DNA of 20,139 bases from a virus. The notes beneath the pieces are model-generated. The model was not told the DNA's origin and did no database searches. It was given only the letters and a program-made list of their open reading frames with translations. The stretch lies in the IMG/VR virus record IMGVR_UViG_3300048928_000664, positions 1 through 20,139 of that record; one strand, given 5' to 3'. Both the position numbers and the translations under genes were made by a program. This document shows, piece by piece, positions 332-15,855 of this stretch. The first letter of the stretch is position 1. Every line of letters begins with the position of its first letter.

Positions 332-910
332 ATGGATATCACTACATCAGCGACGGCTGCCGCTCTGAGGGTCGGGCTGAATATCCTCGTTGGTCGTCGA
401 CGGCCCGAGATTGAATTTTATTATCACGTCCACAATGAGTATCGGCCACCCGACGAGATGCCCGCACGAACAATAAACGTTGCGAAGAACTTCAGCTTCA
501 ACGTGCCATCGACGACGCACCGACGGCACGAAATTTATGTATCGTTCTACGCGGTCAACATAGGAAGCAGTCGCGCTGAAGCGATAGTTTTCAGCATAGA
601 AAACGATTTTAAAAAACGTGGAATAAGTGGCTTTGGTAAAGTCTTCGGTACACCATTGAAGCAAATGGCACCCGGACAATCGTCATATTTGTGTAGGCTT
701 GAAGAGCGGGATCTCTATCCACATGAGCCTGATCCTGAACGATCGACCGATTTTGTTCTAAAAGCATCGTACGAAGCAGCCCACTCTTTGCTTAATTGGT
801 TGCCAAGATGGTGGGCGCGCTTCAGGCGCCGGAGTCAGTATACGACCAACTTCACGTTCGATCCGCAAAATATCGCCACCGATTTGCCGCCACCGACCTA
901 CAACGGCTAG
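332..910 (+). CDS. hypothetical accessory (moron-like) protein
   Basis: A 192-residue protein that I do not recognise. It has no signal peptide. The middle (about residues 65-120) alternates hydrophobic residues and contains V-N-I-G-S-S-R-A-E-A, as in beta-sandwich domains. The C-terminal part has a Trp/Arg-rich stretch (NWLPRWWARFRRR) that could be a basic surface or membrane-contacting helix. The DNA is visibly richer in A and T than the structural genes. It runs opposite to the tail genes, and its TAG stop interlocks with the stop of the leftward gene through a shared CTAG at 907-910. Position, orientation and composition fit a cargo gene acquired by the phage; the role is unknown. Confidence 0.6.
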   Translation: MDITTSATAAALRVGLNILVGRRRPEIEFYYHVHNEYRPPDEMPARTINVAKNFSFNVPSTTHRRHEIYVSFYAVNIGSSRAEAIVFSIENDFKKRGISGFGKVFGTPLKQMAPGQSSYLCRLEERDLYPHEPDPERSTDFVLKASYEAAHSLLNWLPRWWARFRRRSQYTTNFTFDPQNIATDLPPPTYNG

Positions 911-1353
911 GGAAACAGTGCATCGAATAGGGCAGGCGTCAGTGGTCGGGTGGAAACATCCGACTGCCCCGCTGCCTTCCGGAAGGCTCCCATGATGTCG
1001 CCGCTCGACGGCGGCGCCTTCGCTTCTGGCTGCGAATCCTTGCCGGCAGCGTCCCGCGCCGTCTCCAAAAAAACACCGTCGAGCGCCCGCAGCATCTCGA
1101 ACTCGAACGGCCGGATCGGCTCGCGAGCCATCCGCGCATAGGCTTCGATCTCGGCGTTGCCCAACGGGTTCGGACCGAAGCCGTTGCCGGTCCGGGCCAT
1201 ATTCAAAGCCAGGAACAGCCCCCAGACCCGCTGACCGGCGATCGGGACTTCGGGTGCGTCGGGGCTTTCGGCCTCTCCGGGGTGGGTAAGTTGCCATCTC
1301 AGGACGGCAGAGAGCCTCGCCAGGAGCCACTGAGCGTCAATCACGCAGTTCAT
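907..1353 (-). CDS. phage tail assembly chaperone-like protein
   Basis: A 148-residue protein, the last gene of the leftward structural operon. Residues about 40-100 carry W-G-L-F-L-A-L, G-F-G-P-N-P-L, A-E-I-E-A-Y-A-R and E-M-L-R-A-L-D. This pattern resembles small phage proteins annotated as tail assembly chaperones (lambda gpG/GT role: keeping the tape measure soluble). The C-terminal 40 residues are low complexity. The ATG at 1353 is three bases past the preceding stop, so translation is probably coupled. A chaperone normally precedes the tape measure, and here the gene follows it by one gene, so the assignment is tentative. The overlapping frame at 758-1330 is a shadow. Confidence 0.5.
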   Translation of the reverse strand: MNCVIDAQWLLARLSAVLRWQLTHPGEAESPDAPEVPIAGQRVWGLFLALNMARTGNGFGPNPLGNAEIEAYARMAREPIRPFEFEMLRALDGVFLETARDAAGKDSQPEAKAPPSSGDIMGAFRKAAGQSDVSTRPLTPALFDALFP

Positions 1354-1356
1354 CCC

Positions 1357-1824
1357 TCAGAACTCCGGCGGCGTGGCAGCGAAGTCGATGACCGTCGTGG
1401 TGGGGGTCAGCGTCACGGATGCATCGGTGTAATGCCTGATCCCAACTTCCATGAACAGCGCCTCCAATTCCCGTCGGACCTCGACCGGCGTCTCAAGCCA
1501 CTTTTTGAACGAGGCTCTGGGCACGAAATCGATTTCATATGAGAGGTTCGGGAAGAATTCGCCGGTCAGGTCGACACCGTCGGGATCGAGGATTTTCCCG
1601 ACCTTGGGACGGTCGTGGTAGCGCGGCACAAACCGGCTCAGAACAGGGTGGCGGTGAGCCATCTGGTAGGCCCTTTCCTCCGACCAGAACGTCGTCTTGA
1701 TGAAATCGCGAGGGTAGCCCTTTGTTTTGAATACCTTGATCGCACGCCCGGCATCTTGATCGACGAAGATCACCGCGTTGCTGCCTTGGTCAAAGTACCG
1801 AAAATTGGTGCCTTCGATTATCAT
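1357..1824 (-). CDS. miniature protein-kinase-like protein in tail module
   Basis: A 155-residue protein just after the tape measure; its ATG overlaps the tape-measure stop (ATGA, 1821-1824). Kinase-like landmarks occur in the right order: a glycine-loop-like segment (FDQGSNAVIFV, residues 11-21), an A-I-K motif with K30, a helix with E49/E50 as candidate alpha-C glutamate, a hinge-like E-I-D-F (97-100), then H131-Y-T-D134 like an H-x-D catalytic loop, and V-I-D147-F-A like the DFG site. The Asn usually five residues after the catalytic Asp is not seen and there is no room for a full C-lobe, so it may be a pseudokinase or a small-molecule kinase relative. The fold is inferred from motifs only. 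Its place in the tail operon suggests late expression. Confidence 0.5.
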   Translation of the reverse strand: MIIEGTNFRYFDQGSNAVIFVDQDAGRAIKVFKTKGYPRDFIKTTFWSEERAYQMAHRHPVLSRFVPRYHDRPKVGKILDPDGVDLTGEFFPNLSYEIDFVPRASFKKWLETPVEVRRELEALFMEVGIRHYTDASVTLTPTTTVIDFAATPPEF

Positions 1825-4016
1825 AGCTGGCGCTGCTTTCTGGCTGTGGTCACTGCCGCGACGACGCGGGATGGAAGTTCGGCCTTCAGTTGTGCAAGTT
1901 GCTGCTGCACCCGCGCAAGACCGGCGGCATCGGCCCCTGTGGCGTCGATGGTGATCGTGACTGGGGCGGTGATGCTTCCGCCGCTCGAACCGCCCCTCGC
2001 CATAGCCATCGACACGTCGTGCGGGATGACCTGCGCGCCCGAAGGCAGGTTCACGATCTCGCCGCCCTTCTCGTTGATCCGAGCGAGACCGCCCGGAGCA
2101 TTGTCGGTGCCGGTAGCGAACTGAGGCATGGAGTAGCTGCCGATGCCGATGTTCCCCGTGGAGCCGGAGAGGACGGTGCCGCCCGCGTTGGGGTTGCTGC
2201 CGCCGAGACCAAACAGCGACATCAGGCCGCCGCCGGATGATCCGCCGAAAGCGGATTTCCAGAGGTTGTCGGCAGCGATACCGGCGAGCTTGTCGGCCAC
2301 TTTGCCGAGTGCGCTCAATCCCGCACTACCCCACGACTGCCAAAAGCCGACGCCGCTTCGAAGGTTTTGGCCGACCTCGACAAACATGCCAGAATTTATC
2401 GACTGTCCAAGGTCAGACATGGCACGCAGACTGTTGTTGAACCGCATGGCGGCTGCCTCGCTGCTCGCAAGCGCCGCGGGGATATCGTCGCCATAGATGC
2501 CCTTCAGCCGGGACGCGATCTGCAGATCCTCAGAAGTGAGGAATGCGCTGCCGCGGTCGAACTTCATCTCGGCAGCGACCTTGGCTTTCTCCAATGCCGT
2601 TGCGGCGTCGCCGGCGTCCTGCGCCAGATCCTGTATCTTGTCCCTCATCGCCTGCGTCATGGGCAGGCCGGCCTGCTGTGCCGCGGTCAGCAACTGAGCC
2701 TCGGCGCGTAGTTCGCCGAGAGCGCCGGCGCCGAGACCGACGGCCTTGGTGTCAGCCTCGGTTCGGGTGGTATGCTTCTGTACCGCCTCAGTCGCACGGT
2801 CGAATTGGTCGGCCGTTTCCGCTTTGGCTTCAGTTGGGTTCTTGGACGCGTCGCCCCGCACCGCCGACTGGATATCGGTCGCCTGCTGCATCCCTCGCGT
2901 GACGTTGCCATGGTTTTGAAGCGCAGCGCGAAGCTTGGCATTGGAATCGACGGACGCGATATCGACAGGATCGCTGGAAATGCCAAGCGACATCTCGGAC
3001 GCCTTGCGGCTTTCCGGCGTTGTTGTTGCGTTGGTGATCGACGTCCAGACGTCGGCGCCGCCGATCTTCTTGGCAAACCAGTCCGGCACCTTGTTCAGGG
3101 CCGTGTAGAGTTGCGTGGCATAGCCGACCGCAGCCGCAAGCTCCTCGGTGATGCTCACCCAGTTGGCGTGGTAATTCATGCCCAGCTTGGCAAGATCTTC
3201 CTGAACCGGCTTCCACTTGTCTTCCAGCGTCTTCTGCGCCGCGTCCATGCGCTCCTTGAGTTCGATCGCGCGGCCGACATCCTCCGGGGAAATGATCTGC
3301 GACTTGTTGAGCGCGTCGGCACGCGCCAGCATGTCGTCGAGATAACCGCTGTTCTTCTGCAGCGCCGCTGCCACCGGTGCGCCAAATGCTTTGCCGGCGA
3401 TATCCAGGGCTGCGAGACGCTCGCCCTTGTCCAGTGCTTCGCTGATCAGCTTGGCGGTCGCGCGCAGCTTGCCCTCGGTATCGGTCGATAGGCCAAGCGC
3501 GGCCGGACCGCTGTTGCCACTGAAGTTGCCGGCCTTGGTCAATTCGTTGAGGCGCTGCTGCAGGTCGCTGCCACCCAGCTTGTCGGTCGAGGCCTCATTG
3601 AACCGCTTCAACGCAGCGGTGACTTCGTCGATCGACAGAGCAGCCGCCGGACCGGTCTTCGTGAAACGCTGGAAAAAGTCGGTTGAGACGCCGGTGCCTT
3701 CGGCCTTGGCCGCGACGGCGTTGAATTCCTCGATCTGCTTTTTGGCAAGATCGACTGCGTAGGCCAGCACCTTGAACGTATCGACCACCACGGTGACGCC
3801 GAGCGCGATCGGACCGAGCACGCCGAGGACGCGACCAAATGCGAGCGTAGCGCCGCCGGCGGCACCCTGCGTCGCCAGCCATCCAGCATTCATTTTGATG
3901 ACTTGGGCGGTGATGCCGCGGACGGCGTGGCCAGCAAGCGCGCTGGTCTGCTCCATGTCTTGTTTGAATTTGCTGGTGTCGGCGCGGACGGGAATATTAA
4001 GGGCGGGTACGCTCAA
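1821..4016 (-). CDS. phage tail tape measure protein
   Basis: A 731-residue protein, the longest in the structural operon. It sets tail length and is expelled during DNA injection. The N-terminus (VRADTSKFKQDMEQ) is typical of the start of tape-measure proteins; residues about 50-78 are strongly hydrophobic; the centre is Ala-rich and helical; and the C-terminus has the G-G-L-A-R-I-N-E-K-G-G-E-I-V followed by L-P-S-G-A-Q-V-I-P motif common in siphophage tape measures. By the rule of about 1.5 angstrom per residue the tail would be near 110 nm. The start is TTG at 4016, overlapping the preceding stop (TTGA). Several long rightward frames inside it are shadows. Confidence 0.9.
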   Translation of the reverse strand: MSVPALNIPVRADTSKFKQDMEQTSALAGHAVRGITAQVIKMNAGWLATQGAAGGATLAFGRVLGVLGPIALGVTVVVDTFKVLAYAVDLAKKQIEEFNAVAAKAEGTGVSTDFFQRFTKTGPAAALSIDEVTAALKRFNEASTDKLGGSDLQQRLNELTKAGNFSGNSGPAALGLSTDTEGKLRATAKLISEALDKGERLAALDIAGKAFGAPVAAALQKNSGYLDDMLARADALNKSQIISPEDVGRAIELKERMDAAQKTLEDKWKPVQEDLAKLGMNYHANWVSITEELAAAVGYATQLYTALNKVPDWFAKKIGGADVWTSITNATTTPESRKASEMSLGISSDPVDIASVDSNAKLRAALQNHGNVTRGMQQATDIQSAVRGDASKNPTEAKAETADQFDRATEAVQKHTTRTEADTKAVGLGAGALGELRAEAQLLTAAQQAGLPMTQAMRDKIQDLAQDAGDAATALEKAKVAAEMKFDRGSAFLTSEDLQIASRLKGIYGDDIPAALASSEAAAMRFNNSLRAMSDLGQSINSGMFVEVGQNLRSGVGFWQSWGSAGLSALGKVADKLAGIAADNLWKSAFGGSSGGGLMSLFGLGGSNPNAGGTVLSGSTGNIGIGSYSMPQFATGTDNAPGGLARINEKGGEIVNLPSGAQVIPHDVSMAMARGGSSGGSITAPVTITIDATGADAAGLARVQQQLAQLKAELPSRVVAAVTTARKQRQL

Positions 4017-4393
4017 TTGCTTGCTCCCACGAACAGGTCAGCCAAGACGCCAAAGGCAATCACGGCGTTCTGGTGAATCGGCCGGTTGCGCACGAACTCC
4101 TCGACCAGCGCATCAGCCTCGCCGAACTTGATGCCACCGCCCCAAAGGCCGTAGAGCAGCACGCGCTCGATGTCGGGCAGCGAATAGACGCCTTCCTGGA
4201 AACGGCGAAAGCATGCGGCCGGAGTGTCGCCGAACTGGCCACGCAGCGGCTCCAGCGTGAATACGCCGGTACGGGTCCGCAGTATCTTCACCGCCTCCGG
4301 ATCGCCGTTGAGCACTTTCAGCACTCGCGGATCGTTCAGATTAAAGACGTGGACGCCGCCGGCCCAAGTCACTTCGCGTGCGCACTGATTCAT
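4013..4393 (-). CDS. GTA-like tail assembly protein (phage_TAC_11 type)
   Basis: A 126-residue protein just before the tape measure, the usual slot for the tail chaperone of gene-transfer-agent-like phages. It resembles that family: an early beta-hairpin region with G-G-V-H-V-F-N-L, then T-L-E-P-L-R, a region F-R-R-F-Q-E-G-V-Y-S-L-P-D-I-E-R-V-L-L-Y-G-L-W-G-G-G, and a helical tail. The start was placed at the ATG at 4393 because it overlaps the stop of the preceding gene (ATGA, 4390-4393) and because upstream residues in the frame look unlike the family. Expected role: loading or solubilising the tape measure during tail assembly. Confidence 0.7.
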   Translation of the reverse strand: MNQCAREVTWAGGVHVFNLNDPRVLKVLNGDPEAVKILRTRTGVFTLEPLRGQFGDTPAACFRRFQEGVYSLPDIERVLLYGLWGGGIKFGEADALVEEFVRNRPIHQNAVIAFGVLADLFVGASN

Positions 4394-4794
4394 TTGATTG
4401 CCTTTCCAACCGCGTCTGCGATTGCCTGTTGAATGCCGTCGCGTTTCTCGCGATAGGTCGGCCAAAAGAACGGACGCGCGTGCTGTCGGCTGGTGCCGAA
4501 TTCGAACGCCTCGCCATAGTCGAAATCGACGCCGCTACCGTCGCGGACATCACCGGTGGTCGCGTCACCGCCTGCCTGCACGATCCACTCAAGGTCATCA
4601 GCGCCCGGAACGACGGTGCATGATGCCTCCAGGTCGCCGGTGTCCGCTGGTGCCTGTTCCAGCCGCTGCAGCGCAGACCGCTGCGCATCGGACAGCATCT
4701 GTGCCTGTTCGCGGACCGCGCCACTCAGTTCGGCTCGGATCTGATCCGGCAGCGCGTTGAGATAGCGGTCCAGTTCTGCGATATCGTCAGCCAT
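4390..4794 (-). CDS. HK97 gp10-like head-tail / tail completion protein
   Basis: A 134-residue protein resembling the HK97 gp10 family of neck and tail completion proteins. It has helical N-terminal residues 5-40 (LDRYLNALPDQIRAEL), an A-P-x-D-T-G-x-L-E motif near residue 50, and the characteristic Y-G-E-A-F-E-F-G-T then A-R-P-F-F-W-P near 100-120, followed by a terminal amphipathic helix. The start at 4794 is preferred over 4890 because it has a purine-rich ribosome site (GGAGAAAGG) and gives the usual family length; the upstream extension is hydrophobic and unrelated. It overlaps the next gene by ATGA. A 261-base gap with a rightward small gene separates it from the large terminase. Confidence 0.8.
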   Translation of the reverse strand: MADDIAELDRYLNALPDQIRAELSGAVREQAQMLSDAQRSALQRLEQAPADTGDLEASCTVVPGADDLEWIVQAGGDATTGDVRDGSGVDFDYGEAFEFGTSRQHARPFFWPTYREKRDGIQQAIADAVGKAIK

Positions 4795-4861
4795 TTTTTC
4801 GCCTTTCTCCCCTGAAACGATCGGCTTTTCGACAATCAATATTAGCAAAAGGAATATTTTG

Positions 4862-5047
4862 ATGACGCAGGTGACCGACTTTACGGACAAGCTTCACAAC
4901 CGCGCCTCGATCGGACTGCGGGACCACATCAAGGCTAATCTTTCGCCTATTGATGCTGCCTCGGTCTCTGCAGATTATGAATTGCGATATCGCAATGAGC
5001 GACATGACAATGTCTTGCGGCTGCTTAAGGACCGAATGCGCGATTAG
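4862..5047 (+). CDS. small moron-like protein between terL and gp10 genes
   Basis: A 61-residue hydrophilic protein (MTQVTDFTDKLHNR at the start, RHDNVLRLLKDRMRD at the end). It sits in the only sizeable gap of the structural operon and points against it. The ATG at 4862 follows AAGGAA by seven bases; a TTG one codon earlier is possible. The upstream 60 bases are A/T-rich compared with the surroundings. I recognise no family. Small genes in opposite orientation between conserved structural genes are typical of morons, which are often expressed in the lysogen. It could instead be a chance frame; the good ribosome site and the fit to the gap argue for a gene. Confidence 0.45.
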   Translation: MTQVTDFTDKLHNRASIGLRDHIKANLSPIDAASVSADYELRYRNERHDNVLRLLKDRMRD

Positions 5048-5055
5048 TATCGCCA

Positions 5056-6681
5056 TCAAAAATATCCCATTTCTTCGGTCCAATCTTGGCGGTCGTACAT
5101 CGATTTGACTTCGCCTGCGGACGCGCGCGACACAGCCATCCACGATGCAGATGCGCCATCAATGCGGTCTGTACTCTTGCCCTTGTGCATCGTGCGATTG
5201 TTGTTGCTGTCGGTGTGGATGGCGACGTTGCCGAAGCACCAGCGCAGTACAGGATGCCCGGCATGGATAAAGCGTCCACCCAAGATCACTTTTTCCAGGT
5301 CGTTCAGCGCCGGCGACTGGGTGATCCATCCCTGTCGCATCGTGGCGGTTGGTAGGCCGTCCTCGGTTAGCGGACCCAGAACAGCAGAACTGTACGCCGG
5401 GTCAGCGACGATCTCTCGAACGTCAAACCGCTTGCAGAGCGCTCGAATGTGGTTCTCGACGACTTTGTTGTCGATGTAGGCGCCCGGCGTTGGCTCGATG
5501 AAACCATCTTCCGCCCAAGTGACGTAATTGACGCCATCTTGATCGGCCCTCTTGCGCAAATCGTCCTCAGGACAAAAGAAGTGAGGTATGATCAAGTAGT
5601 CGTCGCCGTTGCGCACGCACGCCAAGACGCAGGTCAGGTCCGTCGTGGTTGACATATCGATGCCAATCCAGCACGGCAGCCCATCCAGATCGGGCGGCAG
5701 CGGCCGGTTGCCCAAGTCGTAGATATCCATGTCGACGAAGGGCGATGTCGATTTGTCCAGCCATACGTTGAATTTCAACTGGCGAAGACTATCTCGCTCG
5801 CCGGGACTGGTGGCTGCGCGCTTAACATGGCGATGGAAGCCAGCGATTGACGGATACCCGTGCGCCACGCCTGGATTCACCCTGCGCCACGCTTCCTCGC
5901 TGGTCTGATCCACCTTCGAGTCGGATTCGAACAACACCGGCAAGACGGACGGGTCGATGATCTCGCCCCGAGCCACCTTGCGCGCGTTGTCGATGGTCTC
6001 CCAAGCGATGTTGTCCTGACCGCGGCCGGCGGTGGTCGCGACGACCATCAGCGTGTCGTCCACCTTGTCCAGTCCGGTGGTCAGTGCTTCCCAGAGCAAG
6101 CGCGATGGCCAGACGTGCAATTCGTCGGCCAGCACGAACACCGGCGTCGAACCGTGCTGCCGAGCGGCATCTGATGAAACAACCTCCAGCGCCGACCCCT
6201 CGCGCGCATACTCGATGCGCTTGGCCGAATTGAAGGGATCATGAACCTTGGTCGCCTTCACCAAGCGCTTGTCGGCCTGGACAATCCCTCGCGCCTCCTT
6301 GAACGCGATGCCGGCTTGCTTACGATCGCTCGCGGCGAACACCGCTTCTCCGCCGGTCACCTTCTCCGGACCGATTGTGTGGAGCAGCGCCAGCCCAGCC
6401 GCGAACGACGTTTTGCGATTGCCCCGCGGCACGAGGATGACGACTGTGTTGACGATCCGGGTGCCGTCAGCGTGGCGCGGCCCGTAGACGCGGCGCACGA
6501 TGCGCTCTTGCCAGAAGTCGAGTTGAAACTGTCGCTTGGGCAGCGTGCTCTTGGGATGCTTCAACGCGCGCAGGAAACGGACCGCGCGCTCGCCGAAACC
6601 AAATGGGTCCGGAATATCTGAGCCGTCGTAAATCCAGTTAGGAAATGTTGAGCGGATTGTCGCTGTCGTCATCATTCTCAT
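5056..6681 (-). CDS. terminase large subunit (Terminase_1 / HK97 type)
   Basis: A 541-residue ATPase-nuclease that packages phage DNA into proheads. The Walker A-like motif VPRGNRKTS lies at residues 84-92, the Walker B VFVLADELH at 181-189 with D186 and E187, a T-T-A-G-R coupling motif near 216-220, and the C-terminal RNase H-like nuclease begins at WIGIDMSTTTDLT (338-350) with D342 and D348 as likely metal ligands. Length is normal for the family. It overlaps the small terminase gene by 44 bases. It is unusual that the terminase pair lies downstream of the head-tail connector genes rather than upstream of the portal. ATGs at 6675 and 6672 are alternative starts. Confidence 0.95.
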   Translation of the reverse strand: MRMMTTATIRSTFPNWIYDGSDIPDPFGFGERAVRFLRALKHPKSTLPKRQFQLDFWQERIVRRVYGPRHADGTRIVNTVVILVPRGNRKTSFAAGLALLHTIGPEKVTGGEAVFAASDRKQAGIAFKEARGIVQADKRLVKATKVHDPFNSAKRIEYAREGSALEVVSSDAARQHGSTPVFVLADELHVWPSRLLWEALTTGLDKVDDTLMVVATTAGRGQDNIAWETIDNARKVARGEIIDPSVLPVLFESDSKVDQTSEEAWRRVNPGVAHGYPSIAGFHRHVKRAATSPGERDSLRQLKFNVWLDKSTSPFVDMDIYDLGNRPLPPDLDGLPCWIGIDMSTTTDLTCVLACVRNGDDYLIIPHFFCPEDDLRKRADQDGVNYVTWAEDGFIEPTPGAYIDNKVVENHIRALCKRFDVREIVADPAYSSAVLGPLTEDGLPTATMRQGWITQSPALNDLEKVILGGRFIHAGHPVLRWCFGNVAIHTDSNNNRTMHKGKSTDRIDGASASWMAVSRASAGEVKSMYDRQDWTEEMGYF

Positions 6682-7018
6682 CGTTTCGGATCGTCGGTCG
6701 CGAGCGTGACACCGGCGTCAAACCAAGTTCGGCGGCAAGCTGGCGTGCGGTCTGCATCGCCTTATCCTGCATGCGCACGAAGACTGGATCGATGCCGCCC
6801 GCCTGGAGAGTCCGCTCAATCTCACGAATGCGGCCGGTGGCGACGCAGTACGATTCAAGCCCGCCAAGATCGGCGATCGTGAGGATGCGTCGCTCGACCA
6901 GGCTGGGAAACACACGCTTCCATTCGGCCTTGGCGTCCTTGGACATCCAGGATGGTGCCGATCGGCTGCGGTCAATGGCACCGCCGTCGGTTTGGATCTT
7001 GGGTTTGGTACCCTTCAT
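6638..7018 (-). CDS. terminase small subunit (P27 family)
   Basis: A 126-residue DNA-recognition subunit of the packaging terminase. After a basic N-terminus, residues about 23-65 (W-M-S-K-D-A-K-A-E-W-K-R-V, then L-V-E-R-R-I-L-T-I-A-D-L and Y-C-V-A-T-G-R) match the P27-type small terminases, and the end is acidic (NDENDDDSDN). The start is the ATG at 7018, which overlaps the stop of the preceding gene (ATGA, 7015-7018); upstream residues in the frame overlap that gene and are not family-like. It works with the large terminase encoded directly downstream. Confidence 0.85.
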   Translation of the reverse strand: MKGTKPKIQTDGGAIDRSRSAPSWMSKDAKAEWKRVFPSLVERRILTIADLGGLESYCVATGRIREIERTLQAGGIDPVFVRMQDKAMQTARQLAAELGLTPVSRSRPTIRNDENDDDSDNPLNIS

Positions 7019-7338
7019 GGCGCCGCCCCCGTCGAGAGAGTGCGCAGTTCCAGCGCCTGACGGCGGCCGATCTCGCGGGTCTCTTTCAGATTGTGGATGA
7101 CGCCCTGGTAAATGACGCGGTCCGCGTTCGTCACGCCGTCCAGCCAATGGACACGGAACACCACAGCGGTCTCGTCGGCCGCGCCTGCACCGCGGATGAA
7201 CTCCTCGGTGGATGCCTTGATGATCTGCGCGCGCAACGTCGCGACGACGGACCAGGTCTCAACAGGGGTGCCGGCGGGATCAATCGTGGTGGTGGAACGC
7301 TGAATCGCGATGGTGCGGTCCATGGTACCGGCCCTCAT
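7015..7338 (-). CDS. phage head-tail joining / head closure protein
   Basis: A 107-residue protein of the head-tail joining (HK97 gp9 / SPP1 gp16-like) type. It has the standard pattern: an R-T-I-A-I-Q-R-S start, then D-P-A-G-T-P-V-E-T-W-S-V-V-A-T-L-R-A near residues 19-36, an E-E-F-I-R-G-A-G-A motif, a F-R-V-H-W-L-D strand and a late beta segment. It should form a ring that closes the filled capsid and docks the tail. The ATG at 7338 overlaps the preceding stop by ATGA; an ATG five codons later is possible. It is followed by the small terminase instead of tail genes, which is unusual. Confidence 0.8.
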   Translation of the reverse strand: MRAGTMDRTIAIQRSTTTIDPAGTPVETWSVVATLRAQIIKASTEEFIRGAGAADETAVVFRVHWLDGVTNADRVIYQGVIHNLKETREIGRRQALELRTLSTGAAP

Positions 7339-7769
7339 ATCGTCACGCTCCAACGCTGCTGAACTAGGGTGCTGACCACCATGACGCCGTGGGAGGTCTC
7401 GCCGTCGGGATCCCTCATGAACCGGGACGACTCGACGTGGCAATCAGTGGCGGCATAGTCAGGATCCGCGAGGTCGAGCGCCCGCACGCGACCAACTGAC
7501 CGTCGGATAGCGTCGCTGATCGCTTTGACACCTGCCAAGCTGGGTTCCTTTTTCCAGATGTGGATCGTGCTGTAGACGCGGACGTAATCGCGTTTGATCG
7601 TGAGTTTTGCATCCACCACCTGGTCCTCACCGAGCACGATGGATGGGCTTGGTGCGGGACGCTGGTTGTGGTCGAGGATGCTGTTTGCCGGAACCAGGGT
7701 AGTGACGGCCGGCGTGGCGATGAAACGGGCGCGCAACGCTATCTGGACCGCAGCGCTCGGATCACTCAC
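7335..7769 (-). CDS. DUF3168-type tail completion protein
   Basis: A 144-residue protein of the DUF3168 type. Features are P-S-A-A-V-Q-I-A-L-R-A-R-F at the N-terminus, S-I-V-L-G-E-D-Q, a central Y-S-T-I-H-I-W-K-K-E-P-S-L-A-G-V-K segment and a C-terminal strand containing H-G-V-M-V-V-S-T-L-V. Family members occupy the neck or tail terminator position. The start is probably GTG at 7769: it lies directly at the stop of the connector gene and leaves a family-like N-terminus, whereas the longer frame to 7844 lies inside that gene. It overlaps the next gene by ATGA. Confidence 0.75.
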   Translation of the reverse strand: MSDPSAAVQIALRARFIATPAVTTLVPANSILDHNQRPAPSPSIVLGEDQVVDAKLTIKRDYVRVYSTIHIWKKEPSLAGVKAISDAIRRSVGRVRALDLADPDYAATDCHVESSRFMRDPDGETSHGVMVVSTLVQQRWSVTI

Positions 7770-8064
7770 AGGACCACGACCAATCGCGGTAATCGTTGAC
7801 GATGTGATCCAGACCAAACGGCAGCGTCGCGGCGGACACGCCAACCAGCGTCGCCTCGCGGTTGGCGTAATAGTGGGCTGTCAGAACCAAGACCGCTTGG
7901 TCGAGCGCCGGTGGCACGCCGTCCGGGTATCGTTCCGAGATTTTGTAGCCAAGCTGGCGTTCCAGCCAGTCCTGCGCGGCCAAAAGCAGCCGCGTCACAA
8001 GCGCATCGTCGTCCGACGTGGTCAGATTCAATTGCTGCTTCGCGGTACTGAGATCAACGGCCAT
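7762..8064 (-). CDS. head-tail connector protein (HK97 gp6-like)
   Basis: A 100-residue helical adaptor that docks below the portal ring. The N-terminus (LSTAKQQLNLTTSDDDALV), the A-A-Q-D-W-L-E-R-Q-L-G segment near residues 29-39, P-P-A-L-D-Q-A-V-L-V-L-T-A-H-Y-Y-A-N-R-E near 51-70 and the D-Y-R-D-W end are characteristic of gp6-like connectors. Length is normal. It is separated from the upstream HNH gene by 65 bases and overlaps the DUF3168 gene downstream. Confidence 0.9.
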   Translation of the reverse strand: MAVDLSTAKQQLNLTTSDDDALVTRLLLAAQDWLERQLGYKISERYPDGVPPALDQAVLVLTAHYYANREATLVGVSAATLPFGLDHIVNDYRDWSWSCE

Positions 8065-8129
8065 GGCTCAAAATCTCCAATTCGGTTGTCTCTTGCGTTG
8101 TGGGGGATGTATGGTCAGAAGGCATTTGC

Positions 8130-8486
8130 TTAAACATCTGACCCACCCCCGGGTATATCGTTCGCTCTGTCGAGGGCGTTGCAGCGCTGACACGACGGTC
8201 GCCAGTTGCTCCGCACTAAGCGGAGGTGAGGCGCCCTGCGGATGGAGAAGATGTGGGCCACAAGCGCAGCAGGTGCACCACAACGACAGCGTTCATTGCC
8301 AGGTTCAGCGAGATAGGCTTTGCTGACACGCTGCCACTCAGCATCATAACCACGCTCGCCAGACGATGGCCGCCTCGCATCGTTGGCACGATAGATGGCG
8401 CGCTTTTCTACGATTACATGTTGACACCGCTCGCCTGAGGCGACGCGACATCCGCATGATAGAATTCGGGCTGGCTTCATTGGCAT
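8130..8486 (-). CDS. phage HNH endonuclease (H-N-N variant)
   Basis: A 118-residue phage HNH nuclease. HNH enzymes of this kind often assist terminase in cutting packaged DNA. The family core is visible from residue 39: R-R-P-S-S, R-G-Y-D-A-E-W, C67-R-C69-G, then V-A-H78-I, S-N94-W and C99-x-x-C102-N103. The usual D-H-I has become A-H-I, and the last His of the motif is Asn (an H-N-N form, known among active members). An N-terminal extension carries C11, C13 and C21 and may bind metal. The ATG at 8486 has AGGA upstream. The gene is normally beside the terminase, but here four genes lie between. Confidence 0.8.
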   Translation of the reverse strand: MPMKPARILSCGCRVASGERCQHVIVEKRAIYRANDARRPSSGERGYDAEWQRVSKAYLAEPGNERCRCGAPAALVAHIFSIRRAPHLRLVRSNWRPSCQRCNALDRANDIPGGGSDV

Positions 8487-8503
8487 GGTGTGGTCCTGGA
8501 AGA

Positions 8504-8534
8504 CGCTGACTGCAGTACATCCGTGCAGTCAGCG
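8504..8534. repeat. 11-bp perfect inverted repeat (hairpin)
   Basis: CGCTGACTGCA at 8504-8514 and its exact reverse complement at 8524-8534 are separated by nine bases. It sits in the 63-base gap between the probable decoration gene and the HNH gene. No T-run follows on either strand, so it is not a standard intrinsic terminator. It could be an RNA processing or stability element, a Rho-linked terminator, or a protein-binding site. Confidence 0.75.
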
Positions 8535-8549
8535 CATCCTTCAGTCCGC

Positions 8550-8936
8550 TTACGCTACGGGAGCGAGGGCGGGATGACCCAGGACGAACACGGCACCGGC
8601 AGCGATCGATGTGCCGGACTGCTTGGTGATCACCGCGCGGATGTAGCGGCGCTTGCCGATGTAGCCCTGTCGATAGACCGACGATGCGGCGAGGCCGGAG
8701 GGAAGCGATCCCAGCAGATCGGTGGCCGCAACGTCGGTGAAATCGCCGTCCGTCGTGGTGTTCGACTCCTGGATCCGGATGTCGTAGAGGCCAGCGGAGG
8801 CGATGGCGCCGGTGCTGACCGCCATGAGCGCAGAACCGAAGCCCTGCAGGTCGACCGCGCCACCCTTGAGGGTTGCGGCCTGGATGTCAGGTGCCAACGA
8901 GGTGACGACCTTCGTATCGTGGTAGGTGTCTTTCAA
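8550..8936 (-). CDS. probable head decoration protein (conserved phage protein)
   Basis: A 128-residue protein directly downstream of the capsid gene. It contains L-Y-D-I-R-I-Q-E-S, D-G-D-F-T-D-V-A-A-T-D-L-L-G-S-L-P and Y-I-G-K-R-R-Y-I-R-A-V, ending in V-F-V-L-G-H-P. This combination recurs in small phage proteins found after HK97-type capsid genes, usually annotated as hypothetical. Beta-rich composition and location favour a capsid surface or decoration role. It is too small and wrongly placed to be an obvious major tail protein, although that cannot be fully excluded. Confidence 0.6.
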   Translation of the reverse strand: MKDTYHDTKVVTSLAPDIQAATLKGGAVDLQGFGSALMAVSTGAIASAGLYDIRIQESNTTTDGDFTDVAATDLLGSLPSGLAASSVYRQGYIGKRRYIRAVITKQSGTSIAAGAVFVLGHPALAPVA

Positions 8937-8971
8937 CTGCGTGATCCTTGTGGTTTGAGGGAGGAAGTGGC

Positions 8972-10162
8972 TTACGAAGCCACGACCTTCAGGAACTTGA
9001 TGGCGTTGAAGTCGCCCGCGCCGCCGCCAACACGCTTGTACGTGTCGAACAGAACGCGGCCCTTCTGGGTGATGGCGTCGCGTTCGACGCGGATGCCCTG
9101 ACGATCGACGATGACGTAGCCTTGCTTGAAGTCGCCGAAGGCCACGGGCAGCGTGCCGGCGCCGATGTCGTCGAACTCATCATCGATCTCGACCTGATAA
9201 CCGAGCAGCGGGTGCTCGATGCCTTCGATCAGGTTGCCAGTCGGTGCCCAGAGAAACCGGCCATTGCCGTCGACCACGGTGCGCAGGCGCACTGCCGTGT
9301 TGCTGTTCATCACGAAGCGGGCGTTGCCCTTGTAGGGACGGCGCAGGGACGAGACGAGCTTGACCAGTGCGGTGATCAACTGAGCGTCGGTCGGAGCCGA
9401 TGCGTGGCCCGCAGCGGTGTACTGGAACTTGCCCCACGCGCGGGTGAAGTCCTTCTCGCTGGTGTTGTCGTAGGTTAGGAGACCGCGGGGGAAACCATTC
9501 GACCCGTCGTAGCGCAGGAAGTCCTCACCTTCGGTCTCGGCGAAATCCTGGGTCACATTGGCGATCAGCCACGAAGCGATGTCGACAGCGGCATCGTCCA
9601 GCAGATGGCGGGTCGCCGCCGGCGCGGCGTAATATTCGCCGACGCCATAGGCCTGCTTGATCAGTTCCGGACGTGCGGTATCCTGCGGGCGATCGTCACG
9701 CTCGACGACACGTTGCGCGCCACGCTTGCCGAGCGAATAGAAGCGTTCGTAGGAACTGGTGCCGATCGTGACGACTTCGGCCAGGCTGCGCATCGGTGAC
9801 AGGTCGGCCATCAGCGTGCGAATGCGCAGATCGACGGTCGGCAGGACCAGCCAGCCGCCTTCCACATTGTTGTCCGACGCCGCGGCCTTCATTTCCAGGT
9901 CGCTGCCGGTGCGCGCGAACGACGCGAGGGCCTTGGTTTCGAGTTCGGCCTGTTCGTCCGAAGTCTTGGCACCGGCGCCGGGACGATTGGACTTGGCTTC
10001 GATCGCGGTCAGGCGCTTCAGCAGATCGGGATCGGTGCCCTTGGTCTCGATGGCCTTCAGGCGATCGTCCACGGTCTTGGACAAATCGTCGAGCGCCTTG
10101 GTCACGAGGGCGGCCGGATCGAGGTTGTCGTCTTTGAATTCGAGCGGGGAGAGATGCTTCAT
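8972..10162 (-). CDS. major capsid protein (HK97 family)
   Basis: A 396-residue HK97-fold capsid protein. Residues 1 to about 95 form a helical, coiled-coil-like delta/scaffold region (LDDLSKTVDDRLKAIE) that the adjacent protease should remove. The mature part begins near G-G-W-L-V-L-P-T (102-109), with S-P-M-R-S-L-A-E-V-V-T as the following strand, the D-A-A-V-D-I-A-S-W-L helix, G-E-D-F-L-R-Y-D-G-S-N-G-F-P-R-G-L-L, F-V-M-N-S-N-T-A and L-L-G-Y-Q-V-E-I-D-D-E-F. The ATG at 10162 is chosen over 10219 because AAGGA precedes it by eight bases and it follows the protease stop (10167). Confidence 0.95.
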   Translation of the reverse strand: MKHLSPLEFKDDNLDPAALVTKALDDLSKTVDDRLKAIETKGTDPDLLKRLTAIEAKSNRPGAGAKTSDEQAELETKALASFARTGSDLEMKAAASDNNVEGGWLVLPTVDLRIRTLMADLSPMRSLAEVVTIGTSSYERFYSLGKRGAQRVVERDDRPQDTARPELIKQAYGVGEYYAAPAATRHLLDDAAVDIASWLIANVTQDFAETEGEDFLRYDGSNGFPRGLLTYDNTSEKDFTRAWGKFQYTAAGHASAPTDAQLITALVKLVSSLRRPYKGNARFVMNSNTAVRLRTVVDGNGRFLWAPTGNLIEGIEHPLLGYQVEIDDEFDDIGAGTLPVAFGDFKQGYVIVDRQGIRVERDAITQKGRVLFDTYKRVGGGAGDFNAIKFLKVVAS

Positions 10163-10166
10163 ATGG

Positions 10167-10667
10167 TCAGTTCCTTGTGAGCGCGGCCGTCGCGCGGTGA
10201 ATGGCCTCGGCAAATGCAACGGCCTGGTCGAAGGATTTCGCGGACGTGACGCGTGCCCGCGGATGACTGGGATCTCGAACGAGGGAAATTTCCGCCAGAT
10301 CGAGCGCGGAGATAACGCGGTTGCGGCCCTGCCTCGTGGAGGCCTTGGTGCGAAAGCCGATGGACAGGCCGCTGACCAGTCCGCTTTTCAGCATGGCGCG
10401 CACGGAGCGCGCGCGGGGGTGGTCGAGGTGCAACTGGCCTTTGACGGACAGCCCTTCGGCCGTCTCCGTCGCCTCGGTCCAGGTGCCGACCAAATCCGCC
10501 GGGTTATGCTGAAACAAAATCGGCAGATCGGGATGGATGTCGCCGAATGCGCCCTTCGTGATGATGTCACCCACGCTGTCGGCGGATCCGAACGGCCACG
10601 CGTTTCCGGTGATCTCACCATCATCGGTGACGTTGAGGGCGGCCTTAAGTTCAAGGTTGTCCATCAT
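10167..10667 (-). CDS. HK97-type prohead protease
   Basis: A 166-residue serine protease that matures the capsid by cutting scaffold and delta domains. The N-terminal D-G-E-I-T-G-N-A-W-P-F, D-I-I-T-K-G-A-F and I-L-F-Q-H54-N-P motifs, then S-G-L-V-S-G-L-S102-I-G-F and L-A-E-I-S-L-V-R-D-P, are the standard family signature. H54 and S102 are the likely catalytic pair. The ATG at 10667 overlaps the stop of the gene upstream (ATGA, 10664-10667). The capsid ATG follows four bases beyond its stop. Confidence 0.9.
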   Translation of the reverse strand: MMDNLELKAALNVTDDGEITGNAWPFGSADSVGDIITKGAFGDIHPDLPILFQHNPADLVGTWTEATETAEGLSVKGQLHLDHPRARSVRAMLKSGLVSGLSIGFRTKASTRQGRNRVISALDLAEISLVRDPSHPRARVTSAKSFDQAVAFAEAIHRATAALTRN

Positions 10668-11065
10668 TCGTCGACCAATGGGGTGCGGAGAAGATACGGG
10701 GTGCGATCGGCGGCGAAGCGGTCGGCCTGCTCGCGCAGGAAAGTCATGTCGGTGAACATCTTCACCACTGCGCTGAACGTGAACGGTAGATCGGCGCCGG
10801 CCTTTTTGACGCGCCAGGCAACCACGCAGCGCGCTAGGCGCTCGATGGCCAGTTTGTCGTAATCTTGCGCGGGCGGTGCCGAGCGCCACGCTTGCAGTTC
10901 GTCCTGCATTGTCAGGCGTGCGCGGCGCGCGGTGTCAGAGTCAGGTCCGGCAATCGTCAGCACGATGTCGGGCATCGCTTCGCCAGTGACGGGATGCTTC
11001 GCGACCATTTCGGCACCGCGGTCCTGGTAGGCGATCAGGTCGTCGAGGTGCGCGAGATCGCTCAT
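10664..11065 (-). CDS. conserved phage protein between portal and protease
   Basis: A 133-residue protein overlapped at both ends by ATGA couplings with portal and protease genes. Motifs include H-P-V-T-G-E-A-M-P-D-I-V-L-T-I-A-G-P-D-S-D-T near residues 24-45, I-E-R-L-A-R-C-V-V-A-W near 74-84, L-P-F-T-F-S-A-V near 93-100 and F-L-R-E-Q-A-D-R-F-A-A-D-R near 109-121. This pattern recurs in small phage proteins that are often called structural or tail-chaperone-like, usually located in the tail module. I cannot fix a function; the location between portal and protease suggests a head assembly role or a displaced tail chaperone. Confidence 0.55.
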   Translation of the reverse strand: MSDLAHLDDLIAYQDRGAEMVAKHPVTGEAMPDIVLTIAGPDSDTARRARLTMQDELQAWRSAPPAQDYDKLAIERLARCVVAWRVKKAGADLPFTFSAVVKMFTDMTFLREQADRFAADRTPYLLRTPLVDE

Positions 11066-12222
11066 GCCGGCTCCGTGTTTGCCGGGGCGATGCTAATGTT
11101 GCGGTTACCGTAGGTCTCGCCGCCGGTGTAGGGCTGCAGGCCAATCCACTCCCGCCCGGTGTTCGGGTTGATCGTTTCGGATGCGATTAGGCTGTTGATT
11201 GCGACTGCGCGGTCTTTCAACGAGGCGCGCGTCAAGTCATCGCGGTCGAACACAATTCGATATTTCGCGCGATCTTCCGGCGACAGCAGCGCGCGGCGAA
11301 GGGCAGCCTCCAGCGCGCGCAGGTGCGGCTCCAGGCTATAGGACAGGAATTCCTGACCCTGCTGCTCACCGTTGTTGTACGTGACGCGGCCCAGGTCGTA
11401 GACCATTCCCGGGCCGATCCGGAAGTGTCGGCAGATTTCGAGCACCTGGAAGCTGCGGTTCTCGATAAACTGCGCGTCGGTGCTGTTAAGCGTGTAGCCG
11501 GTAAACTTCGCACCACCCCAGAGCAGCGCGGTCCGGCCGGCGTTGTCGGAGCCTTCGTGAGCCTTGCGCCAACTGGCCCCCATCTTTTTGAGGCTCTCGT
11601 CACCAATCTGACCGGGGAACTCGATCACACCGCCGGGACGCGCGCCCTTGCGAAATAGTTGCAGGGCATGGTTTTCGAGATGCCATGCGGTCGAGATGGC
11701 TTTCAGCGCCATCGTCAACGGGCTGCGATCGAATGCGGAACGCAGGTGGATGACATCCGCAGAGTCGAGCGGGCGATCGCCGAGTTTGTAGGATGGCTCA
11801 CCGGTTTCGTCGTATTCGACGCTGATAACGCCGGGCGCGTAAATGAGGATTTCGACGACGTCCCCATCGACACGGTTAACCCATGCCATGCTGCCGGCAT
11901 CTTCGGTGAGCAGTCGAAATATCAGGGTGCGAACAAATTCGTAGGCGCTCGTCCAGGCGTTGACGTGATCCTGAAGCAGCTTCGAGATGGGATGGTCCGG
12001 CGCATCGAGTTCGCTGCCGTCTGCCTTGATCTCGACGACCTTGATGTCGAGCGTCGCGCACGCGTCGGTGATCGCGGCGATTGAGGACTTGACGACGGAC
12101 ACTTCCATCGCCTGCGCTTTGGTGATCAGACCGGCTTGCCCGGAACCGAGCAGCGCGAGGATTTCATCGTCGGTCTGCGGGACGGCTTTGGTTTCGAAGA
12201 AGCGGAACGGGCCAAGTTTCAT
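11062..12222 (-). CDS. phage portal protein (HK97 family)
   Basis: A 386-residue portal that forms the dodecameric DNA gate of the capsid. HK97-type landmarks are P-I-S-K-L-L-Q-D-H-V-N near residues 76-87, Y-E-F-V-R-T-L-I-F-R-L-L, V-I-H-L-R-S, F-R-K-G-A-R-P-G-G-V-I-E-F, and F-R-I-G-P-G-M-V followed by Y-N-N-G-E-Q-Q-G-Q-E-F. It is the first gene of the leftward structural operon, yet no terminase lies upstream. The ATG at 12222 lacks a clear ribosome site, which is odd for a leading gene. It overlaps the next gene by ATGA. Confidence 0.92.
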   Translation of the reverse strand: MKLGPFRFFETKAVPQTDDEILALLGSGQAGLITKAQAMEVSVVKSSIAAITDACATLDIKVVEIKADGSELDAPDHPISKLLQDHVNAWTSAYEFVRTLIFRLLTEDAGSMAWVNRVDGDVVEILIYAPGVISVEYDETGEPSYKLGDRPLDSADVIHLRSAFDRSPLTMALKAISTAWHLENHALQLFRKGARPGGVIEFPGQIGDESLKKMGASWRKAHEGSDNAGRTALLWGGAKFTGYTLNSTDAQFIENRSFQVLEICRHFRIGPGMVYDLGRVTYNNGEQQGQEFLSYSLEPHLRALEAALRRALLSPEDRAKYRIVFDRDDLTRASLKDRAVAINSLIASETINPNTGREWIGLQPYTGGETYGNRNISIAPANTEPA

Positions 12223-12251
12223 TCACGCTATATGCGCACAGGATGGACCAG

Positions 12252-12280
12252 TTGAGTAGTAAGCTACCCTTCGCTACTGT
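12252..12280 (+). promoter_or_regulatory. candidate sigma70-like promoter for the 12311 gene
   Basis: TTGAGT (12252-12257), a 17-base spacer and TACTGT (12275-12280) read rightward. The predicted start, near 12287, is about 24 bases before the ATG of the rightward small gene. The match is moderate. Confidence 0.35.
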
Positions 12281-12310
12281 TGGCTAGTCTTGGCTCGATT
12301 GGGGAAAAAT

Positions 12311-12583
12311 ATGGTTCACCATATGACAGCGGTCGCTCTAAACAAAAGAGCGCGAGCGGCTTCGGCTGCGATGAAAGATTGTGCGGGCCGCTTAGGAGCC
12401 GCGATCGCGGCCCAATGTCCCCGGCCACCTAAGACGGGCAATTGGTGGACGCGCCCTCCGCCGAGTACAGAGGACGTCGTTGTTCCAGAAGTCAAGTTCT
12501 CACGAGATGAGATTGAAACGATCATAGGACAGCTACATCACTACGCAAACGAGATCGACGAAAAGTCATGGGTGGTCAAGTAG
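12311..12583 (+). CDS. small rightward hypothetical protein (moron-like)
   Basis: A 90-residue protein between two leftward operons. The ATG at 12311 follows GGGG by six bases; an upstream TTG at 12290 would add seven residues. The first half is basic and Ala-rich, followed by a Pro/Trp patch (PPKTGNWWTRPPP) and an acidic helix (FSRDEIETIIGQLHHYANEID). I do not recognise the family. A promoter-like sequence precedes it, and its end overlaps the leftward HTH gene by eight bases. A self-promoted accessory gene expressed in the lysogen fits the context, but a role is not visible. Confidence 0.5.
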   Translation: MVHHMTAVALNKRARAASAAMKDCAGRLGAAIAAQCPRPPKTGNWWTRPPPSTEDVVVPEVKFSRDEIETIIGQLHHYANEIDEKSWVVK

Positions 12584-12785
12584 GCTTCACGGTCAACCAC
12601 CGCACGAACGCTGATTTCAGCACGAAGTAGCGGAAGCCATCGGGCTGGGTGATCGGACAGTCGGGAAGCTTGGCCCATTCATAGATCAGGTCGGGCGACA
12701 CGCGCGCAATCCTTGCGATGTTCTTCGCTCCCCATGTCGCTTCTTCGCGAAGGTTCAATTCGTTGATCTTGATCTCGTCAATCAT
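12576..12785 (-). CDS. small HTH DNA-binding protein
   Basis: A 69-residue protein with one helix-turn-helix: E-A-T-W-G-A-K-N-I-A-R-I-A-R-V-S-P-D-L-I-Y-E-W, then a wing (CPITQPDGFRYFVLKSAFVRWL). The layout (G-A-x-x-I-A, V-S, Y, wing, final helix with W) matches phage AlpA/excisionase-like regulators and small terminase-like HTHs. The ATG at 12785 has AAGGA eight bases upstream. It is the last gene of the replication operon, separated from the replication gene by the repeat array. Likely a DNA-binding regulator; its target is unknown. Confidence 0.65.
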   Translation of the reverse strand: MIDEIKINELNLREEATWGAKNIARIARVSPDLIYEWAKLPDCPITQPDGFRYFVLKSAFVRWLTVKPT

Positions 12786-12867
12786 GCATCATTCCTTGGT
12801 TGCGAATACGTGTTGAATCTGACTTCTTGCTAGTGCAGCGCCGCCCAAAGGCGGGCGCCTGCGCCAT

Positions 12868-12883
12868 GGGGGGGTATGGGGGG
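12868..12883 (+). other. two G-runs (G7-TAT-G6)
   Basis: Seven G at 12868-12874 and six G at 12878-12883, separated by TAT and followed by TGG, lie in the gap between the repeat array and the small HTH gene. The rightward strand might form a quadruplex, or the leftward RNA would carry a C-rich (Rho-type) stretch. Function unknown. Confidence 0.4.
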
Positions 12884-12898
12884 TGGCGCACACACCCC

Positions 12899-12992
12899 GC
12901 TGGCAGGCGTTGGCAGGCCGTTGGCAGTCGTTGGCACCCCCGTTTTTCATACCGTTGGCACCCCGATGGCAGGCGTTAGCAGGGCGTTGGCA
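12899..12992 (+). repeat. helically phased TTGGCA repeat array (iteron-like)
   Basis: Eight 7-base units close to GTTGGCA begin at 12899, 12909, 12920, 12930, 12954, 12965, 12975 and 12986. The spacings are 10, 11, 10, 24, 11, 10 and 11 bases, i.e. one DNA turn with a central break. Five units are exact GTTGGCA; the others are GCTGGCA, GATGGCA and GTTAGCA. Four units lie beyond the stop of the replication gene and four inside its last codons, so it is not just a protein repeat. It resembles a replication origin or a cooperative protein-binding array. Confidence 0.65.
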
Positions 12993-15061
12993 GGCGACGC
13001 CGCTGCGACATAGAGGCGATACATCTTCTTGGACGGCGCACCATGCGGGGCATTTTCAATCTTCCCGCTGGCAAGCAAACGCTCCATCGCATCCTTGAGC
13101 GCTCGCTTGCTGACACCCTGCAAAGCCGCATCCCTCTGGAAGATGAAAGGCGCGTAGCTCTTGCCCTCGCTAGTGCTGACGTGTCGGTTCTGGTCGAGGT
13201 ATTTGCGCAGCAATTCGAGGAACACGCGGTCAGCCTTAGCGGAAGTCGCCATAGGATCGCCGCTGCCTGCCGTGACATGATCTGGCGCGAATACGCCGCT
13301 GCGGTAGCGAACCACGATTTCATCGCCGACCCTGCCATAGTTGGATTTCATCGAGCGCAGCACGCGCGCGTCGGGGTCCGGCTCGCTGTTGTCCTCGGCG
13401 CGGATACGATCGAAATAGAGCCGCGACCGCACCGAGTTGCTCCAACCGGTGCTGCCGCTGGACCCGGTACCCTTCGCCATACCTGCCACGCTGGGATGCG
13501 CCAGCAGCAAAACGGTGCTGTCGTATTTAAGCGCCCAGCCGCGCATCAGGCCAATGAACTGGCGCGCCTGCGACCGGTCGACCTCGTTGCCGCCGAACAG
13601 GTCGGCCAGCGTGTCCAGCACGACCAGCTTGGGCCGTAGAGCCATCAATTGCTCCTCCAAGAGGGCAAACAGCGCTGTCGTCAGCAGAATGCCGCTGCGG
13701 CCGTCTGGGGCCGCCAGGATGGCGTCCTCGCCGGCGAGAGGGAGGATGTGCAGGTCGCCGATCGCGCTCAACGGGACGCTGTTCTCCCGCGCCACGTCGG
13801 CAAGGCGCATGTGCACCTCCTGTTTTGAATCCTCGGCGGTGACGAACAGGCAGACGCCCTGCTCGACCATGCGCCCGAGCCAAGGACGCCCGATGGCCGT
13901 CGAGACCAGGAGTTGGAGCGCCAATAATGACTTGCCGACACCGCCGTCGCCGTACAGCAGCGACACGGTCTCGCCCGGCAGCCAGTCGCGCACGTGCCAT
14001 TTACGGACAGGGGTCGGCAGGCCATGCAGCGACGCGGCCGTGAACATCGCGAGCGCCCGCGGCTCGGCTTCGTCCTCGATCTCACACGGACCGGGTATCG
14101 GCATCCCTGCGGGGAGCGGCCCGGTCGGAGCTAAAGGGGGCGATAGGATGTCATCGGCAAAGATGCCGTCGAACATGTGGTCACGGCGCCACTGGCGATA
14201 TCCGCGATCATTCGATTCACCTATCATGGTCGCGCAGGTTGAAGGATTCGTCGTGTTGGTCTCCTGGCGCGCCCAGACACCATCCAGGCGTTTCTGATCA
14301 TCGGCGTAGCTTATTCGCTCCGCGAGAGACCAGCCGTCATCGCCGAAGCCGTGCCGGATCGCCCGTACCGATTTGACCCACGTTTCCTCCTCGTCGAAGT
14401 AACCTTGGTCGATCAGAAAATCGATGCGGCCGCTGATGTCTGCAAGATCGAACGACCCACTTCCAATGCTCGATTCGTGCGCAGTTGCGGTATCCGCCGG
14501 CGGCGAAAGTGCGCATGCGGCAATCAGGGCATCGGGTGCACTGTATGGTGCATTTTCCGAAAGGAGAGCGTAAGGGCCTGCCACGCCGCCGCGAGCGCCA
14601 TCGTAGTGCCCACCTGGCGCCACGACGTAGCCGTTTGCCGCTCTTGTCTCGACGATGGCATTCCGGCTGCCCTCGGTCCGCTTGACCAATTTCCGCTGCG
14701 ACAGCGCCTGCGGGTCGACACTGGCCGGCAACGTAAAATATATGTGCCAGCCAAGACTGCATGTTTGCACATGAGCCGGATAATCGGCGGGGTCTAGACC
14801 ATGGTCGGTGCACCAGCTACACCACAGCGCCCACGCCCGATCTCGACCTAATTCCTTCACATCAATGTCGACGACGATCAGTCGCGATTTCCCCGCGTTG
14901 ATCGCGAGGTTGTTACCTGTATCGGTCCAGGCCGTCCAGGCTGTTCGCTCGGTTGCAATATCGGTCGTCCATTCCCAATCCTTAAACGGATCCTTAGTGC
15001 CAGGACGAAGCGGAAATAGCGCAAAGCCGTGCCGCTCGGCGTACTCGAAAAATTCTGTCAT
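12947..15061 (-). CDS. replication protein: primase-polymerase fused to RecA-like helicase
   Basis: A 704-residue replication protein. The N-terminal prim-pol domain (about 1-190) has L-F-P-L-R-P-G-T-K-D-P, a metal-binding D65-I-D67 after V-V, L-G-W-H106-I-Y-F and Y-V-V-A-P-G-G. A linker domain (about 205-300) has W-V-K-S-V-R-A-I-R-H-G-F, as in primase C-terminal regions. The RepA/AAA_25-like ATPase has Walker A GDGGVGKS (371-378), Walker B LVVLD (479-483) and L-L-L-A-H-P-S (518-524). The C-terminus looks like a winged helix. It should prime and unwind phage DNA. The ATG at 15061 has a GGGGG ribosome site. The last 15 codons overlap the repeat array. Confidence 0.9.
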   Translation of the reverse strand: MTEFFEYAERHGFALFPLRPGTKDPFKDWEWTTDIATERTAWTAWTDTGNNLAINAGKSRLIVVDIDVKELGRDRAWALWCSWCTDHGLDPADYPAHVQTCSLGWHIYFTLPASVDPQALSQRKLVKRTEGSRNAIVETRAANGYVVAPGGHYDGARGGVAGPYALLSENAPYSAPDALIAACALSPPADTATAHESSIGSGSFDLADISGRIDFLIDQGYFDEEETWVKSVRAIRHGFGDDGWSLAERISYADDQKRLDGVWARQETNTTNPSTCATMIGESNDRGYRQWRRDHMFDGIFADDILSPPLAPTGPLPAGMPIPGPCEIEDEAEPRALAMFTAASLHGLPTPVRKWHVRDWLPGETVSLLYGDGGVGKSLLALQLLVSTAIGRPWLGRMVEQGVCLFVTAEDSKQEVHMRLADVARENSVPLSAIGDLHILPLAGEDAILAAPDGRSGILLTTALFALLEEQLMALRPKLVVLDTLADLFGGNEVDRSQARQFIGLMRGWALKYDSTVLLLAHPSVAGMAKGTGSSGSTGWSNSVRSRLYFDRIRAEDNSEPDPDARVLRSMKSNYGRVGDEIVVRYRSGVFAPDHVTAGSGDPMATSAKADRVFLELLRKYLDQNRHVSTSEGKSYAPFIFQRDAALQGVSKRALKDAMERLLASGKIENAPHGAPSKKMYRLYVAAASPANALLTPAIGVPTV

Positions 15062-15085
15062 TGATCCCCCGCTGCATCCGCAGCT

Positions 15086-15332: not shown

Positions 15333-15338
15333 GGTGTT

Positions 15339-15733: not shown

Positions 15734-15752
15734 GTTGTGCTCCTTTAAAACG

Positions 15753-15793: not shown

Positions 15794-15797
15794 TATG

Positions 15798-15833: not shown

Positions 15834-15855
15834 TCACAATTTTTGAACGTATGTG

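Follow-up and report, generated by a model that had tools for sequence, protein, structure and literature searches.

The window analysed here, the whole 20,139-nucleotide viral record IMGVR_UViG_3300048928_000664, carries a small gene that is cargo, cleanly inserted at the junction between the genes for a tail tape-measure protein (TMP) and a Phage_TAC_18 tail assembly chaperone (TAC_18). The gene belongs to a rare and unnamed family with only five members, in which residues arranged in the order of a kinase active site are conserved, and whose other four members lie in defence-associated or prophage-like surroundings. We tentatively read its product as a minimal kinase-like protein that is mobile and serves in phage conflict, a statement that taken as a whole falls a little short of even probability.

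Position of the gene and its carrier element

A preliminary description of this DNA had proposed a 155-residue protein with kinase-like motifs, encoded inside the tail module and coupled to the tape measure. The open reading frame is real, as judged from its translation and from the relatives found, and every motif lies at the residue given for it; two details needed correction, since the gene is on the minus strand and the conserved glutamate is E49 and not E50. The coordinates of the gene, its motifs and its neighbours are collected in Table 1. The TMP stop codon overlaps the start codon of the kinase-like gene, the coding strand across this junction reading ...CAGCTATGATAATC..., and the TAC_18 gene starts at 1353, downstream of the kinase-like reading frame. 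A search for sigma-70-like promoters from 850 to 4100 gave none. The overlap and the lack of a nearby promoter-like site together make it likely that the gene is co-expressed, and presumably co-translated, with the late genes, in agreement with the earlier proposal that it is made with late proteins. The term tail module fits in that the tape measure and chaperones are present, although recognised genes for a tail tube or tip are missing.

Two sister elements, with TMPs 83 and 80% identical, lack the kinase-like gene at this junction. In these elements, which otherwise have the same gene order, the TMP gene is directly joined to the TAC_18 gene. The junction DNA reads ...CAGCTATGATCGACC... without the gene and ...CAGCTATGATAATCG[gene]...GTGATTGACGC... 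with it. The GC content of the gene is 56.6%, compared with 63.1 and 64.9% for its two neighbours. Because the sister junctions lack the gene and its GC content is below that of its neighbours, we conclude that it is cargo.

The preliminary description had also suggested that the protein might modify host or virion components or act as a tail-injected effector. Translational coupling between the tape-measure and tail chaperone genes would suit a protein that takes part in tail assembly, belongs to the virion or is delivered through the tail. Against such roles, the sister elements do without the gene, and none of the four relatives described below adjoins tail genes. A function of this kind is therefore most improbable, and the earlier suggestion of a tail-injected effector is not supported.

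The element itself contains genes for an integrase, an excisionase/AlpA-like protein, a primase, a portal, a protease, a major head protein and connectors, together with both terminase subunits, a tail-completion protein, chaperones and the tape measure. No tail tube, tip, fibre or lysis gene was recognised in the window record. The Pfam name of the match at 4013-4465, 'tail tube protein, GTA-gp10', denotes a chaperone-class family (Phage_TAC_11), although the name leaves strictly some room for a small tube protein. This element type is conserved, spanning 907-18611 in the window and 707-20236 in a sister copy (L048 and L049, IMGVR_UViG_3300048929_000342). The sister contig holds a complete copy with the same layout, in which two exact copies of a 48-bp direct repeat, at 707 and 20189, bound 19.5 kb; the copy at 707 lies in an intact tRNA-Lys.

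Capsid-forming PICIs produce their own capsids (PMC10803314, PMC11389934). The element resembles them in having an integrase, an AlpA/excisionase-like gene, a primase, its own head and packaging genes and, in the sister copy, ~19.5 kb between att repeats, as well as in being without a recognised tail tube or tip. It differs from them in carrying a tape-measure gene and tail chaperones, and in its Bradyrhizobium-type hosts. The element may be a capsid-forming satellite of Bradyrhizobium-type hosts; it may alternatively represent a decayed prophage lineage.

Several further features of the element were observed. At about 19022-19072 of the window, the 3′ half of a tRNA-Gly(TCC)-like gene was recognised by eye beside the integrase gene, and presumably marks the attachment site. 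No repeat of at least 13 bases linking it to the left end of the window was found, so the other att site probably lies outside the window. Two plus-strand reading frames, at 1-288 and 332-910, are convergent to the late operon and had no match in the family libraries searched; the second has a GC content of 50%, compared with about 60-65% elsewhere. In the sister element, a 431-aa reading frame (around 831-2126 of L049, contig positions 11830-13125), possibly fibre-like by eye, lies between HNH and connector genes and is absent from the window.

Table 1. Features of the kinase-like gene and its two neighbours in the window
Feature	Position	Strand	Basis or conservation
Kinase-like ORF, 155 aa (stop codon included)	1357..1824	minus	ORF list, relatives, alignment
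Codon of G14, glycine-loop-like DQGSNAVIFVD (EGAYGLIFLD-type in relatives)	1783..1785	minus	5/5
Codon of K30 (AIK / VRK, beta-3 lysine position)	1735..1737	minus	5/5
Codon of E49 (alpha-C glutamate position, K30 + 19 residues)	1678..1680	minus	5/5
H131-Y-T-D134, HxxD catalytic-loop-like	1423..1434	minus	D134 5/5, H131 4/5
Codon of S136 (D134 + 2), in place of the kinase Asn	1417..1419	minus	5/5
D147-F148-A149, DFG-like	1378..1386	minus	D147 and F148 5/5; DFA in 4, DFG in 1
ATGA overlap, TMP stop (TGA) and kinase-like start (ATG)	1821..1824	minus	translational coupling
Tail tape-measure protein (TMP) gene, 731 aa, upstream neighbour	1821..4016	minus	PHROG phrog_8892, E 7e-20
Phage_TAC_18 tail assembly chaperone gene, downstream neighbour	907..1353	minus	Pfam PF23812, E 3.8e-10

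The family and its conserved residues

The kinase-like protein gave no family match in Pfam, PHROGs, NCBIfam, PADLOC or the PDB, and nothing matching it was found in the phage and plasmid collections. Neither the window protein nor its relative at locus L025 matched any system protein of PADLOC-DB 2.0.0, and no related family emerged when individual members, consensus sequences or the family alignment were used for profile scans. Relatives were sought in Bradyrhizobium, a genus chosen by way of the TMP, for which the host with a match was Bradyrhizobium sp. Leo170. Querying 266 Bradyrhizobium genomes with the window protein yielded one true relative (E 6.9e-20, 37% identity in that search), and this relative in turn identified three more in 397 genomes of the same order. 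Overall, the four are 33-36% identical to the window protein, and pairwise identities within the five-member family are 33-46% where reported. Additional relatives were found neither in 392 genomes of the family, 385 of the class and 136 of another family, nor when viral contigs and genome contigs were scanned with the kinase-like protein. Two candidate members, L028 and L051, were rejected as chance motif matches, and weak matches in G001 and G268 (E 0.05-0.6) fall in unrelated loci. The distribution is thus thin and scattered, which fits the expectation for a mobile gene.

The window protein and its four relatives (L025, L030, L031 and L032) were aligned over 155 positions, of which 26 are invariant. 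G14, K30, E49, D134 and D147 are unchanged in all five proteins, and D134 and D147 are the sole invariant aspartates among 11. These five residues had been named in the preliminary description before any relative was known, and their conservation is therefore a fair blind test; in a permutation analysis, random draws of residues of the same types did equally well in about 1e-4 of trials. That description had also asked whether K30, D134 and D147 vary among homologues, and none of the three does.

Comparison of the individual motifs with those of kinases gave a mixed picture. The beta-3 lysine, alpha-C glutamate, catalytic aspartate and DFG aspartate are in order and conserved throughout the family. 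Two adjacent residues, E49 and E50, had been put forward for the alpha-C position; only the first is conserved. The lysine-to-glutamate spacing of 19 residues also occurs in PKA. The proposed H131-x-x-D134 loop is upheld for its aspartate, while the histidine is present in four members and replaced by tyrosine in L032; the family therefore has HxxD where protein kinases have HxD. As had been noted earlier, the metal-binding asparagine is missing, and an invariant serine takes its position in all five members. The glycine loop reads EGAYG(L/V/I)(I/V)F in the four relatives and QGSNA in the window protein, which retains only the first glycine and has alanine at the second. At both ends the window protein is shorter than its relatives, by some ten residues at the N-terminus and by their C-terminal tail. 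The C-lobe is much reduced, again as described before: only 8-22 residues follow DF(A/G), so that a normal C-lobe cannot exist in any member.

Predicted fold and surroundings of the relatives

Single-sequence structure prediction produced a low-confidence model of the window protein (mean pLDDT 42.6, pTM 0.33). Its elements follow the order strand-strand-strand-(strand)-helix-strand-strand-helix-helix. This order would fit a kinase N-lobe with alpha-D and alpha-E after it, but at such confidence is only a hint. Comparison of this model, with its pLDDT of 43, against the PDB returned unrelated chains only, all below Z 5. A sequence-profile search of the PDB found no kinase, and its other matches were weak and non-kinase. 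Apparent 'kinase' matches (BRI1 and similar) were discarded, as it was their extracellular leucine-rich repeats that aligned, and they disappeared with a larger profile. With hhalign, ten E. coli proteins of kinase fold barely detected one another, so that aligning the family to them had little power.

The lack of a kinase match in profile and structure searches, together with a protein far smaller than usual kinases and almost devoid of a C-lobe, would suit a mobile conflict gene with a non-kinase fold. The conserved Lys, Glu and Asp would then serve some other small enzyme or binding fold, and their kinase order would be coincidental. This is the main rival to the kinase-like reading and shares its conflict role. 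Residues named in advance nevertheless proved invariant, with p about 1e-4, and in all four relatives the glycine loop is followed by K, E, D and D in kinase order. We regard a non-kinase fold as rather unlikely. The earlier designation of a minimal or pseudo-kinase is partly supported, by the conserved residues in kinase order, but the profile and PDB searches link the family to no kinase. We judge a kinase-like fold likely, and the chance that the protein is catalytically active is about even.

Several of the departures from kinases set out above (the missing Asn, the HxxD loop, DFA for DFG, the nearly absent C-lobe and, in the window member, the second loop glycine and the missing tail) would also be expected of a pseudokinase-like binder, which keeps the N-lobe and perhaps nucleotide binding and acts by binding a partner, not by phosphorylation. 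Mere binding would not demand the selection that has kept K, E and both Asp invariant in five of five members, and this reading is improbable. The VIDF strand, typical of APH-like kinases, would also suit an enzyme of the aminoglycoside-phosphotransferase type, acting as a small-molecule kinase or as a nucleotidyl transferase. The APH profile PF01636 matched nothing in the window record, whereas the same search matches 9 of 14 control genomes, and Pfam scans of all five members gave no PF01636 match. Also missing is the C-lobe, which builds the small-molecule site in such enzymes, and an enzyme of this type is highly improbable.

The surroundings of the relatives bear on the role of the family. 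Three of the four lie near defence systems. The L030 relative adjoins an AbiEi/AbiEii pair (E 1e-97 and 1e-120; PADLOC), the L031 relative has homologues of SspA, SspB, SspC and SspD at a distance of up to about 10 kb, and an IetA/IetS pair lies about 5-9 kb from the L025 relative, with a resolvase in between. The region around the L032 relative is prophage-like, containing a CI-type repressor and genes with RES, PIN and FRG domains; this relative has a GC content of 42.7%, compared with 65.0% for the locus. No gene recurs as a partner among the five loci. A ParB-like gene was recognised by eye just 5′ of the L031 relative, near the SspA homologue (L034, 10504-12420), and had no PADLOC match. 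The defence and prophage surroundings suggest, through guilt by association, a portable conflict gene. We consider a role in phage conflict slightly more probable than not.

In the favoured explanation, the gene would encode an accessory protein that is mobile and stands alone, its kinase-like core reduced to the N-lobe, the catalytic loop and the DF(A/G) strand with almost no C-lobe. ATP would be bound through K30/E49 and D147, and phosphate would probably be transferred, with D134 as the catalytic residue. The protein may interfere either with rival phages or with some host process on which those phages depend, and a satellite-like element would carry its gene as cargo, as one cistron of the late operon. 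A more far-reaching version is unlikely, namely an active kinase of ~155-170 residues, with almost no C-lobe and an HxxD...S loop, that by itself constitutes a new anti-phage (or inter-satellite) system, encoded by one gene and disseminated within the Hyphomicrobiales through prophages, satellites and defence islands.

Comparison with known systems

Minimal atypical kinases of the HopBF1 type have a reduced atypical kinase fold with a solved structure (Lopez et al. 2019, reviewed in PMC9950578). The window protein is likewise small, with kinase motifs missed by ordinary family searches, and would share a reduced fold. HopBF1 is a secreted effector, whereas the window family is found in a phage-like element and in defence neighbourhoods. 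No PDB chain named as HopBF1 family matched at E up to 10, a comparison in which remote homology would be missed. The window protein is probably even shorter than HopBF1.

Kinases are also used against phages: KKP is a prophage kinase that acts in phage defence with a phosphatase partner, and Stk2 is likewise a kinase-based defence (PMC11341870). The window family resembles both in combining a kinase-type protein with a mobile or defence setting. KKP and Stk2 are recognised Ser/Thr kinases, while the window family consists of one small gene with no recurrent partner. With bacterial kinases of the APH, YrbL and HipA types the family has in common the VIDF strand and the order G, K, E, (H), D, D, and it differs from them in having no Pfam match.

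If the predicted fold is right, few known kinase-like proteins would be as small as these, and the family would reveal which parts of its fold a kinase can do without. As a portable conflict gene, which its surroundings suggest, the family would join the very few kinase-based phage defences.
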